DNA of 33,634 nt, from assembly GCA_947627845.1 (NCBI GenBank), contig CANQXQ010000006.1, positions 1-33,634 on the forward strand, given 5' to 3'. The notes under the pieces are model-generated. The model was not told the DNA's origin. It searched no databases and was given only the letters and a program-made list of their open reading frames with translations. Position 1 is the first letter of the stretch. The number at the start of each line of letters is the position of its first letter. Below are positions 13,411 through 27,842 of this stretch, one piece after another. The stretch comes from an uncultured Bacilli bacterium. Lineage in GTDB: Bacteria > Bacillota_I > Bacilli_A > RF39 > UBA660. The position numbers and the translations under genes are program-made.

Positions 13411-14697
13411 TTACCCTAAATATTGAATAAGAATTGTCACTACGGAATTAGCAAAATATGATTCTGAAGCCGTTGTCGTAATAGAGGGCGCATCTAAAAT
13501 AATTTGATTTCTTGAAAGATTAACTAATTCCATAAAAGTTTTTGATTTATCGGACACGACAAACATACCTTGACCATAAATTTTTGTCGTTGGTGCTCCT
13601 CCATACCAAGCCGCCCCTCCTGCATAAATTATTTCATCAAACATATTTTTAAAACCTACAGATACCACCGTACTATTAGGATTAAATACTGTATTCGGAT
13701 CAGTATAAGTTGTCACAACAAAATCTATTCGATATACTCCCTCTTTATTAAATGTAATTAAACTTTCCGGGGTTAAATTACAAATATTAGCATTATCCGA
13801 TGCTTTTCTAGTTATCGGAATCCGATTATATCTTCCTAATGTTATTGGCCCTTGATCATTAAAAGTCACAAAGTAAGCAACTCCTATTTCCTGTGGTCCT
13901 GTTGGTCCTGTCGGTCCTATTTCGCCCTGTGGTCCTTGTATTCCTGGTTCTCCTGCAATTCCTTGAGGGCCTTGTAATCCTCGTGGCCCTTGAGGTCCCA
14001 TCGGTCCGATTGGGCCTTGATCTCCTTTAGGGCCTTTAATAACACCCACATCTTGCCAATCCCCTAAAGTATCAGACCAAACATATAGATTTTCATCAAC
14101 TAAATAACTTTGTCCTGGTTCTCCTTTAGGTTGGGCTTTTTTTAAATCTTCCAAGGTATCATAAGAGCCTAAAATTGTTACACTTGTTCCTGCCGGTCCG
14201 GTTGGTCCTTGAGGCCCCACTTCTCCTGTATAGCCCCGCGGAATAGTAATATCTAAAACATGCTCTAGCCCGGAGCCGACATCGACAATACTCGCCGATT
14301 CTTCTGGTGAACCCGTAATAACTTTACCGATAGAGACTGCAACTGGAGGGCCTACTTCTCCTTGAGGTCCGGTGGGACCCATTTCTCCTTTTTCGCCTGG
14401 AACTCCCGGAATTCCTTGGGGTCCTGGTAAGCCCTCTTCCCCTTGAGGCCCAGTTGGTCCTTGAGGAATAATAAATTCTAAGCGAACTTTTTGCTCATCT
14501 CCAAAATTTACTACTTCCGCGGAACTTCCTGGATCGGCAGTTACAACACTAGCAATTTCTAACGATACAGGTCCGGCTGGTCCGGTTGGTCCTTGGGGTC
14601 CCGTCGGACCTTGAGGACCATAACAAATATAATTTTGACAACTATGATTTTTTTGATAATTATTTATATAAGCTTGAGCTTTCTTTTGATTATTCAT
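13411..14697 (-). CDS. Collagen-like (BclA-type) surface/exosporium protein
   Basis: GPTGPQGPTGPAG repeats, interrupting beta modules ending in IPQGPTGP, non-collagenous C-terminal domain. Confidence 0.9.
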   Translation of the reverse strand: MNNQKKAQAYINNYQKNHSCQNYICYGPQGPTGPQGPTGPAGPVSLEIASVVTADPGSSAEVVNFGDEQKVRLEFIIPQGPTGPQGEEGLPGPQGIPGVPGEKGEMGPTGPQGEVGPPVAVSIGKVITGSPEESASIVDVGSGLEHVLDITIPRGYTGEVGPQGPTGPAGTSVTILGSYDTLEDLKKAQPKGEPGQSYLVDENLYVWSDTLGDWQDVGVIKGPKGDQGPIGPMGPQGPRGLQGPQGIAGEPGIQGPQGEIGPTGPTGPQEIGVAYFVTFNDQGPITLGRYNRIPITRKASDNANICNLTPESLITFNKEGVYRIDFVVTTYTDPNTVFNPNSTVVSVGFKNMFDEIIYAGGAAWYGGAPTTKIYGQGMFVVSDKSKTFMELVNLSRNQIILDAPSITTTASESYFANSVVTILIQYLG

Positions 14698-14711
14698 TCA
14701 AGCCTCCTTTC

Positions 14712-14744
14712 ATAAAAAGCTATTGAACAATCAATAGCTTTAAT
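14712..14744 (-). terminator. Terminator downstream of the upstream collagen-like gene
   Basis: - strand AAAGCTATTG attgtt CAATAGCTTT TTATG. Confidence 0.6.
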
Positions 14745-14745
14745 C

Positions 14746-15684
14746 TTAATTTAATTTTTTAACAGTTAAAGATGCTGATGTAATACTTCCCGTTACCGCA
14801 TTAGTTGACTCTGCTTCCAAAGTTACTGAATCTCCAGCATTTAAATCAGCTAGAGTTACAGCTTTAAATACTTGCGGTTGATTAGCCTCTAATGATAAAG
14901 TTTGACTTGATCCCACAATATCATTAGAACCATCATTAGCCGTAATAGTTAAAGATTCGGCTGATTGAAGACTTGCGACTACATCATAAGAAATTTCATA
15001 AACGCCATCTTCGGTAATTGAAATGGTATTTGATTCAGTTTCTCCGACACTTGAACTAGGTAGAGGATTTCCTAATTCGACTGTTACTGGAGTATTAGCT
15101 TGTAAATTAAGAGTCTGGGAAGCTGTATTATATAATCCTCCATAAGCATTCAACCCATTAGCTGGTCCAGTTGGTCCTTCAGGAATTGTAAACTCTAATT
15201 GATAAGTTCCATCTCCTCCGGTAATTTGTACTGCCGCAGCCGTTCCTGATGGTACAGTTTGAACTGGTGCTACTGTTAAAGTTGGGGCTGGTCCTACTGG
15301 TCCAACTGCTCCTTGAGGTCCTGTCTCTCCTGTTGGTCCAGCAACCCCCGGAATTCCTTGTGGTCCAGTCGGTCCAATCTCGCCTTGAGGTCCTGTTGCT
15401 CCAGTAGCTCCCACTATTCCTTGTAAACCTTGAGGTCCTGTAGGTCCAGTTGGTCCTTGAGGTATAGTGAAATTAAAAATAGCATTTGAACTTGTTCCCA
15501 CATTTACAACTGTTGCTTCACTTCCTGGTGCCGTTGTCGTTGTAGTTCCCGCTGTTACTGTTGCCGCAGCTGGTCCCGTTGGACCTGTTGGCCCTGTTGG
15601 TCCGTAGCAGCAACATCCTCCACTATAAGGATGATTTTGTTGATAACAATTAATTAATTGTTGTGCTTTTTGTAAATTATTCAA
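14746..15684 (-). CDS. Collagen-like (BclA-type) surface/exosporium protein
   Basis: [11 protein letters not shown] repeats; N-terminal leader [19 protein letters not shown] similar to the neighbouring paralogue; BclA-like C-terminal beta domain. Confidence 0.9.
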
Positions 15685-21662: not shown

Positions 21663-22421
21663 TTAAATACCTACACTTTTATTATCAAAAGTTATAAATA
21701 AGTTATTTTCTGTTAAATAACTATCTAAATATAATGTCCCTTTTTTATTTTGGGCATCACTTGCTATTTTAGCATATATTTTAATATAATTATCTAATCT
21801 TTTCATATTAAGAGTATTTATATATACCATATTACCATCATTCATTCTTAATTTAAAGCGTTTATTATCAATAACAATATCTTCAATAATATCAGGATCA
21901 TACTCTATTTCATTAATCATGCCGATAATATCAGGATTTATTTTTTTAAAAGTATCTCTAAACTCTTCTAATAAATCATTAGGCACATAATTTATTAAAG
22001 TTGGTATTCCCATATATTTATTATTATTTAAAACTTCTTTCCCATTACTTAACATAATCTTATTAGTATTGCGATTATAAAAAAGAGGGATTGCTTCTTC
22101 TACATCAATCGTAATTTTTCCCCTAAAAATATCTTTATTAACTTCGACATTCGCGACTAACTCTAAACTACCAATCTTTTCTTCTAATTTTCTAGAACTA
22201 GTTTTAATAAGCATAGGGTAATCTTTAATCCCTGCGGCTTCAATAATTTCATTATCAGTTAATAATCTTGTATTATTTATATAAATATTTTTTATTCTAA
22301 CTGTAAAAAAAGTATATAAAAGAGTTCCTATTAAATAAACAATTAATAGTAAAACAATTAAAGCTTTAAAATTTACTCTTACTTTTTTTACTGTTTTTTG
22401 CATCTTAATTCTTCCAATCAA
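21663..22421 (-). CDS. ftsQ: Cell division protein DivIB/FtsQ (POTRA)
   Basis: N-terminal TM, POTRA-like region, position next to murB/murG. Confidence 0.8.
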   Translation of the reverse strand: MIGRIKMQKTVKKVRVNFKALIVLLLIVYLIGTLLYTFFTVRIKNIYINNTRLLTDNEIIEAAGIKDYPMLIKTSSRKLEEKIGSLELVANVEVNKDIFRGKITIDVEEAIPLFYNRNTNKIMLSNGKEVLNNNKYMGIPTLINYVPNDLLEEFRDTFKKINPDIIGMINEIEYDPDIIEDIVIDNKRFKLRMNDGNMVYINTLNMKRLDNYIKIYAKIASDAQNKKGTLYLDSYLTENNLFITFDNKSVGI

Positions 22422-23277
22422 CTATTTCTTGTTCTAAAATTAAATCAACATTATATTTTTCTTTAATCTCTTCTTGTATTAATTTTATCAAACTTTTTAT
22501 ATCATTACTAGTCGCATTCCCTGCATTTACAATAAAGTTGGCATGTTTTTCCGAAACTTTAGCCCCACCAATTTGTTTTCCTTTAAGACCTGCTTCTTCA
22601 ATTAATCGTCCCGCAAAATCCCCCTCCGGATTACGAAAAACTGAACCGGCAGATGGAAATTCTAAAGGTTGAGTTTCTTTTCTTTTACTACACCGTTTAT
22701 TCATTATTTCTTGCGATTCTTCTTTGTTTCCTAAAGCCAGTTTAAATTTAGCTTCTAAAACAATAATATTTCTTCCTTTTAAATTAGTATAACGATAAGC
22801 ATGTTCAATTTTATCTTTTAAAATTTCTTCAATTTCCCCAAGTTCATTTAAAATCTTAATACTTATTAAATTATCAAATAATTCAGCATTATAGGCCCCA
22901 GCATTCCCGACAATACTTCCTCCGACAGTCCCAGGAATATTTAAGGCCCATTCTAATCCAGTTAAGGATGCATTAACCGTTTCTTGGGCTAGTTTTCCCA
23001 TCATGCATCCCGCCTCCGCTACAACAATGTTATCATTTATTGTAATATTATTAAACTCTAACTTAATAATTGCTCCTTTAAAATAACTATCTAAAATTAC
23101 ATTAGAACCTGCCCCAATAATAAAATATTTAATATTATTCTTTTTTAAATAATCAAGAATATTTATAAGACCATCTACACTTTTAACTTTAATTAAATAT
23201 TTAGCCTTAACATCTAATTTATAAGTATTTGTAATATTAGCATTTTCTAAAATTATCACATCTTGTATATTATTCAT
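22405..23277 (-). CDS. murB: UDP-N-acetylenolpyruvoylglucosamine reductase
   Basis: GAGSNVIL, GLEWALNIPGTVGGSIVGNAGAY, FPSAGSVFRNPEG, AGRLIEEAGLKG. Confidence 0.96.
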   Translation of the reverse strand: MNNIQDVIILENANITNTYKLDVKAKYLIKVKSVDGLINILDYLKKNNIKYFIIGAGSNVILDSYFKGAIIKLEFNNITINDNIVVAEAGCMMGKLAQETVNASLTGLEWALNIPGTVGGSIVGNAGAYNAELFDNLISIKILNELGEIEEILKDKIEHAYRYTNLKGRNIIVLEAKFKLALGNKEESQEIMNKRCSKRKETQPLEFPSAGSVFRNPEGDFAGRLIEEAGLKGKQIGGAKVSEKHANFIVNAGNATSNDIKSLIKLIQEEIKEKYNVDLILEQEIVDWKN

Positions 23278-24367
23278 TCATTAATTCCTCAATTTCTGTT
23301 ACTATTGCTTCACTACTATCGGCTTTACCTAAATTTTTTAAATTCATTTTAATAATATCATATTGTTGTTTATCATTAAGTAATTCTTCTACCATTTTAT
23401 ATAATTTAGATCCATCTAAATCTTGTTCTAATACCATTTTTCCAGCATTATTATCGACAATCTCTTTCGCATTATAATATTGATGATTGTTAGCTACATA
23501 AGGACTAGGAATAAAAATAGCCGGTAAATTTAAAGCTAAAATTTCACTCATCGTACTAGCCCCTGCTCTCGTAATAATTAAATCTGCACTGCGCATTAAA
23601 CCGGCCAAATTATCTAAATAAGGCACTATTTTTATATTAGAATTAAAATTAGTATCTTTAATAAAATCTTCATAATGCGCTCTTCCGGTAATATATAAAA
23701 CTTGATAAGAACCTTTTTTACTATACTCTAAAAAACTTTTAAGTTTCGCATTAAGCGTACTACTGCCTAAAGAACCTGCGACCACAATAACTAACTTTTT
23801 ATCTTCTAAAAAACCTAAATCACTTTTCTTTATTTTAGTTGTTGTTAAAGCTGCTTCTCCACAAGGATTACCGGTATAAACAACTTTTTTAGCACCCTTA
23901 AATTTATCTAAAGTTGATAAAAAAGAAACTGCGACTAAATTCGTATTCTTAGCTAAAGCTTTATTAGTTTTACCGACCACACTATTTTGTTCATGTAAAA
24001 ATGTTTTTATTTTTAATTTTTTAGCGGCCTTTAAAACTGGGTAAGTTACATACCCCCCAAAACCTAAAACTAAATCTGGTTTAAATTCTTCCATTAATTT
24101 TAAACATTTATTATAAGCTTTATTTATTAAAAATACATTTCTAAAATCTTTTAAAATATTTTTCGAAAAACCATATATCTCTATACCCTCATACTTTATA
24201 TTTCGTTTAGGAATTATTTCACTTTCCATGCGATTATGAGTTCCTATATATAATACATCTAAGTTTTTATCTTTACTCTTGAGTTTATCAATCACTGCTA
24301 AAGCTGGGTAAATATGTCCCCCTGTTCCCCCTGCACTTACAATTATGCGCATAAGATCACCTCTCAA
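23270..24367 (-). CDS. murG: UDP-GlcNAc:MurNAc-pentapeptide glycosyltransferase
   Basis: VSAGGTGGHIYPALAV, GFGGYVTYPVL, HEQNSVVGKTNK, TRAGASTMSEILALNLPAIFIPSPYV. Confidence 0.97.
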   Translation of the reverse strand: MRGDLMRIIVSAGGTGGHIYPALAVIDKLKSKDKNLDVLYIGTHNRMESEIIPKRNIKYEGIEIYGFSKNILKDFRNVFLINKAYNKCLKLMEEFKPDLVLGFGGYVTYPVLKAAKKLKIKTFLHEQNSVVGKTNKALAKNTNLVAVSFLSTLDKFKGAKKVVYTGNPCGEAALTTTKIKKSDLGFLEDKKLVIVVAGSLGSSTLNAKLKSFLEYSKKGSYQVLYITGRAHYEDFIKDTNFNSNIKIVPYLDNLAGLMRSADLIITRAGASTMSEILALNLPAIFIPSPYVANNHQYYNAKEIVDNNAGKMVLEQDLDGSKLYKMVEELLNDKQQYDIIKMNLKNLGKADSSEAIVTEIEELMNE

Positions 24368-24425
24368 TCTATTATACTAATAAATTCCTAAAAAAACTAT
24401 CATTTTTTTTCTTTTCAAGCTTTAC

Positions 24426-24752
24426 CTACCAAAATAACCCTTTTAAAATCTTCATTAACCCTCCAACTCCATTAGTCATTAATTCACTTAAACCCTCACT
24501 AAACTTATTCCCAATCTTTGTAACTTTATTGGAATAATCTACCTTTTCTTCTTTTAAATAATCTTTTAATTCTACTATTTCTCCATTTCTTAAATCATCT
24601 TCAAACTTTGCCATAGCTTCTTTAGTCATTAAAGCTTTACTATTAGCTCTTGTCTCATAATACCCACTTTTATAGGCAATAATAAGCGCCACATAAACTA
24701 AAAATAATACCCCTAATAACTTAAAAAAGATACTTGTTTTTTTCTTTTTCAT
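24426..24752 (-). CDS. Small TM protein in the YqxA position (downstream of spoIIP)
   Basis: 108 aa, one N-terminal TM; overlaps the spoIIP stop; position matches yqxA in Bacillus. Confidence 0.5.
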   Translation of the reverse strand: MKKKKTSIFFKLLGVLFLVYVALIIAYKSGYYETRANSKALMTKEAMAKFEDDLRNGEIVELKDYLKEEKVDYSNKVTKIGNKFSEGLSELMTNGVGGLMKILKGLFW

Positions 24753-25663
24753 ATTTCCCCCTTTATATATTTAGCTAGTGTTCCAGCAACTATCTTTAAA
24801 GTTCGATTAACTTCGGCAATAGTATTTTTTCTTCCCCCAACCTGTAAAAGCATTACATTCTCATCAAAATCTTGATTATAAACTCCATGATAGCCCGCTC
24901 CACCCCATTTACTAACTCCTTTAGATATACAACTATTAAACTTTTTAAGATCATTATCTAGCTTATTTACTATTTTTTCATTTTTAAGATAATTAGTATT
25001 ATCTGTTCCCACCACCCACATAACTTTCGCATAAGCTATATCATCAATCATACAAGTAGTATTATCATAATCATTATCAGATAATTGAATATCAATAAAA
25101 TATTTTAAGGAATTATTTTCATTTTTAGCATTATTAAGTAATATTCTTGATCCCCTATAACTTAAAGAATAATCAATATTATTCTCTTTTAAAACTTTAG
25201 CAACACTACTAAGTTCTACTAAAGAACTTATTCCCTCTTTTTTTAAATATTCTTGTAATATTAAACTAGCTTGGGTAATAACAGGATTAATATTATAAGA
25301 ACTATAATAATTATTTGTATATTTATCAGTTTGAAAAGTATTATATATATATACTAAAGGTTTAGTATCTATAACTAAATCAGTTATATTAGAATTATCG
25401 CTACTTACTTTTTTATCTAAATATATATTAAATCCATAACTATTTTTATATAATAAATTACTATTAAAACTATACTTATCAATTATATTCCCAAAAGAAT
25501 TTACTTTTATAATTTTTATCATATTATTACTTAAAAATAAATCTATATATATATTAACTATTATATTTAAACTAAATAAAATTAACATAAATATAATTAT
25601 TTTACTTAATATAACTTTATATCTCGGTATTTTTATTTTTTTTCTAGCAATAAACCTTTTCAT
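24749..25663 (-). CDS. spoIIP: Stage II sporulation protein P
   Basis: N-terminal TM; PLVYIYNTFQTDKY, INPVITQASLILQEYL, KYFIDIQLSD, YNQDFDENVMLLQVGGRKNTIAEVNRT. Confidence 0.88.
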   Translation of the reverse strand: MKRFIARKKIKIPRYKVILSKIIIFMLILFSLNIIVNIYIDLFLSNNMIKIIKVNSFGNIIDKYSFNSNLLYKNSYGFNIYLDKKVSSDNSNITDLVIDTKPLVYIYNTFQTDKYTNNYYSSYNINPVITQASLILQEYLKKEGISSLVELSSVAKVLKENNIDYSLSYRGSRILLNNAKNENNSLKYFIDIQLSDNDYDNTTCMIDDIAYAKVMWVVGTDNTNYLKNEKIVNKLDNDLKKFNSCISKGVSKWGGAGYHGVYNQDFDENVMLLQVGGRKNTIAEVNRTLKIVAGTLAKYIKGEI

Positions 25664-25866: not shown

Positions 25867-27234
25867 CTATGTCGCAACAAATGGTTCTGTACTCGTTCCT
25901 TTTCCTGTGATACTTATATTAGCTTTCAGATTTATTACTGGACGCACCCCAGGCTCAGTCCAGCTCACGCGGTCGTAGCCGAGGGAGCCACCCGAATACA
26001 CATCGAACACGAAAGCGCTGCCGTCAGAGCTATTATAGACATACGGAGACAAGGTCCAATAATACTGGTTAGTATATAGCCAATTACTTGAATTACTTGA
26101 TCCATATATCATTCCCGCTAATGCTACTTCATCGGCTGTTATTAATGCTGCTGGCACTTCCAAAGCTCCATTTCCACTTCCTGCATCTGTATTTAAGGTA
26201 TATAAATCATTTTTGTCACAGCTTAGATCTGGTGTTACACTTGTTTTACTATAAAATCTCTCTCTTGGTTTATATGCTGTCTTTGTTGTACTTGTTCCAT
26301 TTCCTGTATAACTACTATCTGCTGTTGATACTCTTCTATCATTACAAAATCCGGTACTTCCACTTATTTTACTGGTATAACTGTTTAAATTTGTTCCATA
26401 CCACTTTGTTACTTCATCTGCTATTGTACTTTTTCCGCCTTTATTACTATGTGTTTGACTATAATCACTTGATCCTTTTGTTCCATAATAATAACCTACA
26501 TATGTATTATCTCCATAATCTGTATTATATGCGATACTCGATACTGCATTTGTTGCAGTTCCTGTTGTATCTGTACAACTATTTGAATTACACTGGAATA
26601 TTACTCGGAGTGTTCCGTCACTATTTATTCTTATTATTCTCCATGTCTTTCCTGCGAATCTTAACCAATTATCTGTGACATTTCCTCTAAATACATATGT
26701 TTTATCTCCATTTTCTGGGTATGAATACAATGTATTACTTATTGAATCACTTCCAGCTTTTCCGAATGAGCCTTTTTCTAATGAAGTATCTATTGTATAT
26801 TTACTTCCACCTTTGGCTGCCTCTAATTTTGCTAATGTTTTTTTAGATAAACTTTCTTTTACAAAATACAAATAACATTTACTTCCTTTTTTTAATTTTC
26901 CTATGACTAGATTTCCTTCACTATCTGTTGCTAATGTTACATCATCATGTTGTTTTGAATCTGTTGTATAACAATAACTATTTTCTTGATCTATCTCATA
27001 ACCTGCTCCCGGCATTTCAGTTGTTTCTACTCCATCTTTATACATTGCTATAGTATTTAAATCTGGTAATTTATAATTTATTGTTCCTGTCATTAATGGT
27101 ATACTCTCTGTATTCCTATAACTTGCTTTACTTGGTAATATATTTATTAATGTAAGTATACTTGCTGCTATTATTACTCCTATTACTATATACTTATACT
27201 TATTATTACTGGTTTTTAATTTTTCTAGTTTCAT
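25867..27234 (-). CDS. Membrane-anchored surface protein with C-terminal CLec/DUF6273-like domain; candidate DGR target
   Basis: ORF track gives 25867..27255; MKLEKLKTS start (27234) preferred because of AAAGGGAAAAG upstream. Signal anchor YIVIGVIIAASILTLINIL; WTLSP..., VFDVYSGG...GVRPVINLKANISITGKGTSTEPFV. Confidence 0.85.
   Translation of the reverse strand: MKLEKLKTSNNKYKYIVIGVIIAASILTLINILPSKASYRNTESIPLMTGTINYKLPDLNTIAMYKDGVETTEMPGAGYEIDQENSYCYTTDSKQHDDVTLATDSEGNLVIGKLKKGSKCYLYFVKESLSKKTLAKLEAAKGGSKYTIDTSLEKGSFGKAGSDSISNTLYSYPENGDKTYVFRGNVTDNWLRFAGKTWRIIRINSDGTLRVIFQCNSNSCTDTTGTATNAVSSIAYNTDYGDNTYVGYYYGTKGSSDYSQTHSNKGGKSTIADEVTKWYGTNLNSYTSKISGSTGFCNDRRVSTADSSYTGNGTSTTKTAYKPRERFYSKTSVTPDLSCDKNDLYTLNTDAGSGNGALEVPAALITADEVALAGMIYGSSNSSNWLYTNQYYWTLSPYVYNSSDGSAFVFDVYSGGSLGYDRVSWTEPGVRPVINLKANISITGKGTSTEPFVAT
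25935..26064 (-). repeat. Putative DGR variable repeat (VR) at the 3' end of the surface-protein gene
   Basis: Abrupt GC rise (69/120 G+C in 25941-26060 by hand count) and many NNC codons (GTC AGC GAC GGC AGC TTC TTC GGC TCC CTC GGC TAC GAC CGC AGC) within the lectin-like domain. Confidence 0.65.
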
Positions 27235-27374: not shown

Positions 27375-27842
27375 TTGGTGATTAAAATGAATTATAAAGA
27401 ACGTATGAATGAAATAAGAACAATAAATGATATAAGCCAAAAAGAAATAGCTAAAGTTTTAGGAATTTCAGCCTATACCTATAGCCACTACGAAACAGCT
27501 GATACAATAATTCCTTTAAAACATTTAATTGCTTGTTGTGATTACTTTAAAGTATCTGTAGATTATATTTTAAATTTAACTAATCAAAAAAAATATGCTA
27601 ATTCTAATAAAGAATATAACTTAATTGTAAGTGGTAATAGACTAAAAGCTTTTCGTAAAGAAAATAAAATTACTCAAAACACTTTAGCTAAAAAAATAAA
27701 TATTGCTAGATCTATGCTTTCAGAATATGAAAAAGGTCATTATTTAATTTCAATTCATTGCTTATATTCCATTTGTAAAAAATATAATATTTCTGCCGAT
27801 TACTTACTGGGAAGAATTGACAGTCCTATATACTTAAAATAA
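27375..27842 (+). CDS. Transcriptional regulator with two tandem HTH_3/Xre domains
   Basis: Two HTH copies: ISQKEIAKVLGISAYTYSHYE and ITQNTLAKKINIARSMLSEYEKG. Confidence 0.88.
   Translation: MVIKMNYKERMNEIRTINDISQKEIAKVLGISAYTYSHYETADTIIPLKHLIACCDYFKVSVDYILNLTNQKKYANSNKEYNLIVSGNRLKAFRKENKITQNTLAKKINIARSMLSEYEKGHYLISIHCLYSICKKYNISADYLLGRIDSPIYLK

Follow-up and report, generated by a model that had tools for sequence, protein, structure and literature searches.

DGRs are usually found through their RT with a nearby template repeat (TR). The DGR of Bordetella phage BPP-1 (target mtd) resembles the system described here in having RT and Avd, adenine-specific transfer from TR to variable repeat (VR), a VR at the 3' end of the target gene and a structured RNA 3' of the TR; in BPP-1 this spacer folds, recruits bRT-Avd and primes the cDNA (PMC12875486). 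It differs in having its TR and spacer within the avd-brt operon (avd-TR-spacer-brt), whereas here the TRs are separate, with their own leader and tail and at a distance from the RT, and Avd is preceded by a MutS_I-like gene. In Treponema denticola one RT likewise serves several remote targets, two to seven per isolate, and isolates without RT and TR retain leftover targets (PMC4891356). Its single TR, however, is in the core locus, whereas here many TR genes lie outside the core locus, and the genome analysed here has retained TRs after loss of the RT. Thiohalocapsa sp. PB-PSB1 also has many targets in one genome, and its incomplete loci have been proposed to act in trans, but it has nine loci with 15 targets and several independent DGR systems, in contrast to the single core RT and as many as 26 TR genes found here (PMC10907252). 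Paralogous target domains are dispersed over the genome in cyanobacterial DGRs as well (PMC7517822), whereas here the templates are dispersed too. Multi-TR DGRs are known: 216 of 271 multi-VR DGRs had one TR and the remainder had more, and since that survey accepted partial systems only with an RT and one or more TRs, it would overlook TR genes located far from any RT (PMC6642488). No description of stand-alone TR-RNA genes away from an RT was found in the open-licence literature.

The window, that is the whole stretch of 33,634 nucleotides analysed, is contig C6 of an uncultured Bacilli assembly of 983 kb in 88 contigs, rated 92% complete. It encodes a protein whose gene carries a GC-rich patch of 57.5% GC, against 30.9% in the remainder of the gene and 27.2% in the window (Table 1). 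This agrees with the hand count of 69/120 on which the initial annotation had based a GC island in an AT-rich gene. The enrichment in NNC codons which it had put at about 15 of 36 was also found, at 16 of 40 codons in the patch versus 23 of 422 in the remainder of the gene (Fisher p=4e-9). The limits given for the island, 25935-26064, were correct to within one base at the start and ran 9 bp too far at the end. The patch border proved to be more than a shift in composition, as it is also the onset of template homology, which the initial annotation had not noted. GC at the level of the patch was reached in 5 of 3352 sliding 120-bp windows, one being the patch and four lying in two collagen-like genes with G-X-Y repeats (13411-15684), the sole other stretches to match the VR in GC.

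Table 1. Coordinates of the target gene and its parts in the window (contig C6) and of the genes at the former RT site (contig C50).
Feature	Contig	Position	Strand	Basis or remark
DGR target gene	C6	25867..27255	-	ORF of 462 codons; paralogues in own genome
C-terminal domain with VR	C6	25870..26838	-	AlphaFold2 and Foldseek; DUF6273-like by fold
VR, WTLSP-variable-GVRPV, 120 bp	C6	25936..26055	-	TR homology, adenine-specific mismatches, composition
VR 3' end GTGCGTCCAGTA; GTGCGTCCAATA in TRs	C6	25936..25947	-	Sequence comparison; candidate counterpart of IMH/IMH*
MYG1-like gene	C50	313-1194		Name by reading
DUF378-type gene	C50	1529-1326	Reversed coordinates	Name by reading
Lipoprotein gene	C50	1654-2721		Name by reading

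When the patch was used as a query against its own genome, ten further places were matched, nearly all of them paralogous genes or fragments of these. These paralogues end in W-T-M-S-P-variable-RPV. The one match that was not a paralogue was an intergenic, AAC-rich stretch on another contig (C43:7536-7643). This stretch, used in turn as a query, identified two more TRs, one after a uvrA-like gene (C12) and one after a ribosomal L27-like gene (C19), both gene names being assigned by sequence reading. All three TRs share a 5' leader and approximately 150 nt of 3' tail, and no RT was found beside any of them. A search of the genome with a model of the tail added two partial cassettes, namely a remnant on C41 and one at the start of contig C64 which is interrupted by the contig end. 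With three full cassettes and two partial ones, the suggestion that a template lies elsewhere in the genome was borne out. Single-base insertions are present in the C19 cassette. C41 was rejected as a fourth TR, being a tail remnant without a TR core. A match to the window on contig C14 (L007, about 1420-1545) was also considered as a TR and looks like the remnant of a target-gene 3' end; the sequence downstream of it resembles that found 3' of the window's target gene.

Comparison of the VR with these templates showed differences concentrated on TR adenines. Against the C12 TR, mismatches fell on 16 of 28 adenines and 8 of 82 other bases (Fisher p=1e-6), and against the C43 TR on 19 of 33 adenines and 6 of 74 other bases (Fisher p=1e-7), so that 57-58% of the adenines of these two intact TRs differ from the patch as opposed to 8-10% of the other bases. 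The TRs of the genome compared with one another displayed no strong bias (A 0.24, others 0.14-0.19). The intact TRs have 43-49% GC and 27-33% A, while the VR has 58% GC and 14% A. The TR alignment spans C6:25936-26052, and constant termini were seen across copies, CCAGTA in VRs and CCAATA in TRs, as candidate counterparts of IMH/IMH*. Lest plain scoring build the bias in, alignments were redone favouring each base in turn. For 22 VRs and 7 TRs of a relative (G026), mismatches at other bases came to 12.7% if A was favoured and 27-31% if C, G or T was favoured; in one pair from this genome, 18 of 31 adenines differ and 1 of 62 other bases. Adenine-biased differences between TR and VR thus occur in this relative, and also in G018. 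These mismatches identify the GC-rich patch as the VR of a DGR, as the initial annotation had claimed. None of the TRs found is an exact template for it, the best having 8 of 68 non-adenine mismatches and two 3-base gaps, and the pairing of the window's VR with a TR therefore rests on family likeness; its true TR may have been lost, may have drifted or may be unassembled. Most other VRs of the genome have drifted further, with an adenine bias that is weak or absent.

The VR sits at the 3' end of a gene whose product matched no Pfam or NCBIfam family over the cut-off, a match to SpaA (Pfam) being sub-threshold. A hydrophobic segment, read by eye as a probable membrane anchor or signal, is located at the N-terminus. 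The C-terminal domain was modelled by AlphaFold2 with a mean pLDDT of 95, and the sole Foldseek match in the PDB at an E-value below 0.001 was a Thomasclavelia IgA peptidase; the significant matches thus included no solved structure of a DGR protein with C-type lectin fold. A profile of the domain found nothing among the sequences of solved structures. Among viral Foldseek matches, DUF6273 proteins were significant and DUF1566 proteins far weaker. DUF6273 has been reported among DGR target domains (PMC11792537), and the DUF6273-like fold of the model therefore makes a C-type lectin fold likely. The last 117 residues of the window's protein gave 37 matches in G026, 44 in G018, 58 in G028, 67 in G021 and 80 in G004, these being counts of domain matches of which some are perhaps undiversified. 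It should also be noted that proteins of about 1000 residues in G021 (C5, C13 and C27) have two variable-domain matches each, possibly representing two VRs in one protein. Beside the VR gene in the window lie ftsQ, murB, murG and a SpoIIP-like gene (21663-25663; named by eye), a cell-wall and sporulation neighbourhood, and directly upstream is a divergent gene (27375-27842) with two helix-turn-helix (Xre-like) repeats, also recognised by eye.

The initial annotation had expected an RT elsewhere in the genome. In the whole assembly, 92% complete, no match was obtained with RVT_1 or with the genus's own DGR RT as query, and the greater part of its sequence was also read directly. The latter is a protein of 372 aa with IGNMTSQ and YMDD motifs, encoded by a full-length ORF in 18 of the 36 genus genomes searched, the window's genome counted among them. 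In the core loci examined with their surroundings, a MutS domain I-like gene is followed by a bAvd gene and then by the RT. The bAvd assignment reached 40.2 bits in a relative against a cut-off of 40, and the NCBIfam Avd model gave E=1.3e-9, yet below the cut-off of that model. The MutS domain I-like protein has 140 aa (L094:2757-3179 and homologues), and its gene occupies the same place upstream of Avd and RT in the cis cassettes examined. In relatives the core RT is flanked by a MYG1-like gene on one side and by a DUF378-type gene and a lipoprotein gene on the other (names by reading). In the window's genome these flanking genes are adjacent on contig C50, and the gap of about 130 bp between the MYG1-like and DUF378-type genes still carries the final codons and the stop of the RT, matching G026. 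With the flanking genes contiguous on one contig and an RT scar between them, the idea that the native RT was merely unassembled was dropped; judging by this scar, the MutS_I-Avd-RT operon has been deleted at its conserved locus. The native site is thus empty, and the expected RT was not found. Joint absence of TR and RT from a complete genome had been named as evidence against a DGR; here the TRs exist and the RT is absent, in an assembly short of completeness. By its gene content, the system of the window's genome is a relic and not a complete DGR, and DGR activity would have been lost in this species.

Loss or damage of the RT is seen elsewhere in the genus. At least five other genomes have a broken core RT gene: it is interrupted in G001, G007, G009 and G013, and in G011 most of it has been deleted. 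The frame changes in G007 (L116) and G009 (L117) almost coincide, at around residues 270-297, and may reflect a shared lesion, an error of assembly or a programmed event. A second, divergent DGR RT lineage, 45-46% identical, was observed in two genomes (G012:C73, L121; G029:C26, L122) with a TR-tail match on the same locus, which indicates that the cis form also persists in the genus.

TR cassettes were detected in 32 of the 36 genus genomes, both dispersed and in tandem arrays. All 18 genomes with a full-length core RT carry TRs (2-26 each), and the four genomes without TRs (G002, G016, G024 and G029) all lack the core RT, G029 having a divergent RT. The covariance model counted 26 cassettes in G030, 20 in G004, 16 in G015, 13 each in G021 and G028 and 11 in G018, with rough E-values and one genome per species; these copy numbers may be low because the assemblies are fragmented. 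No TR tail was found at the 18 core RT loci, where only chance-level matches near E=0.8 were obtained. By this arrangement, the system of the genus is a DGR variant with TRs as separate genes and a TR-less RT operon.

A GGTTAATCT-like box was present in 68 of 70 cassettes, and 60 of these 68 boxes have a −10 hexamer (TATAAT box) at most 25 nt upstream, usually at 6-7 nt, compared with a background of 16%. It is suspected that each TR is transcribed from its own promoter. The tail is predicted to fold into five helices, with 97.6% of cells paired and two-sided changes in 26 of 33 pairs; none of 500 shuffles equalled this and slid controls gave 37-45%. A T run follows the last tail hairpin in most aligned copies. 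The 5' box also forms a 10-bp pairing with AGATTAATCN of the tail. At the variable pair of this 5'-3' helix, 52 of 59 copies are paired, whereas shuffles gave 26 on average and at most 39, with boxes picked by consensus likeness and position and not by pairing, and with related copies that are not independent. Several box changes are compensated in the tail, such as GGGTTAGTTT with AAACTAATCC and GGGTTTATCT with AGATAAATCC. The TR loci matched no Rfam family.

Across the order, the tail model found matches in 39 of 385 genomes, all in one family and spread over 8 genera. In G178 and G131, two genomes of sister genera, the parts stand in the usual order of target gene, TR(s), tail, MutS_I-like gene, Avd and RT, with no RT seen within the stretch of G178 that was examined. 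Tails also lie upstream of the RT in loci L317, L322, L323 and L325, with four tails in L317. Sister lineages thus have a cis TR beside homologous RTs, and the likely course, as read from these arrangements, is from a cis cassette to a cis array, then to dispersed templates and to RT loss in some species including the window's. Most related public records come from uncultured gut Bacilli, and the RT relatives include Candidatus Caccenecus avistercoris.

Taken together, we hold with high confidence that the VR arose by DGR retrohoming, that the RT operon has since been deleted and that separate TR-RNA genes occur in the genus. RNA from a stand-alone TR gene would have been copied by an RT-Avd complex misreading template adenines, and the cDNA would then have replaced the 3' end of the surface-protein gene, retrohoming taking place in trans. 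The sharp edges of the patch, its NNC codons (AAC with randomised adenines) and its rise in GC would follow from the VR having been written in this way. Later deletion of the MutS_I-Avd-RT operon in the window's species most likely left the VR frozen. In the rest of the genus one TR-less RT operon would serve 2-26 TR-RNA genes, each with a structured 3' tail which, by analogy with BPP-1, would recruit and prime the RT.

Continued diversification of the VR by a DGR RT of foreign lineage, carried on a phage, a plasmid or an unassembled contig and using the remaining TRs in trans, is improbable, though it merits more weight than the other alternatives. Two TR cassettes look intact in leader, tail and pairing, the assembly is incomplete and some genus members do have divergent DGR-like RTs; however, the assembly is without any RT match, the native operon was deleted and is not an assembly gap, and the insertions in C19 and the remnant on C41 are as expected without selection. 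An origin of the patch by horizontal acquisition or gene conversion, without any part for reverse transcription, is very unlikely. A sharp compositional border and many paralogues able to recombine would suit such an origin, but the differences from non-coding AAC-rich repeats fall on adenines, and conversion between paralogues predicts neither an adenine bias nor intergenic templates. Least credible of all is composition due to chance or to the demands of the protein: the collagen-like genes of the window also reach 57-58% GC, but the patch coincides with TR homology, and some paralogues (L013 and L016) write the same protein positions with more A and T. Retrohoming followed by loss of the RT operon is thus the preferred reading.

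On a wider scale the genus probably has a modular trans DGR, a view held with somewhat less confidence than the origin of the VR itself. One MutS_I-Avd-RT complex would draw on a library of separately expressed TR-RNA genes (up to 26), each with its own recruiting tail and closing 5'-3' helix, to rewrite surface-protein genes, dozens of them, in genomes of some 1-1.5 Mb; the templates would have multiplied and left an ancestral cis cassette, and the RT would have been lost repeatedly, with frozen repertoires remaining. Surveys that rely on an RT plus a nearby TR would undercount templates and targets, since the templates here are far from the RT. One template RNA is available in the genus in many natural copies, in which covariation reveals a conserved fold including the 5'-3' closing helix, and this fold leads to direct, testable predictions on the template features that a DGR RT requires. 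The genus also provides a natural series that runs from cis cassette through cis array and dispersed templates to RT loss, and in the window's species the presumably frozen result of targeted hypermutation can be set against sister species in which the RT is retained.
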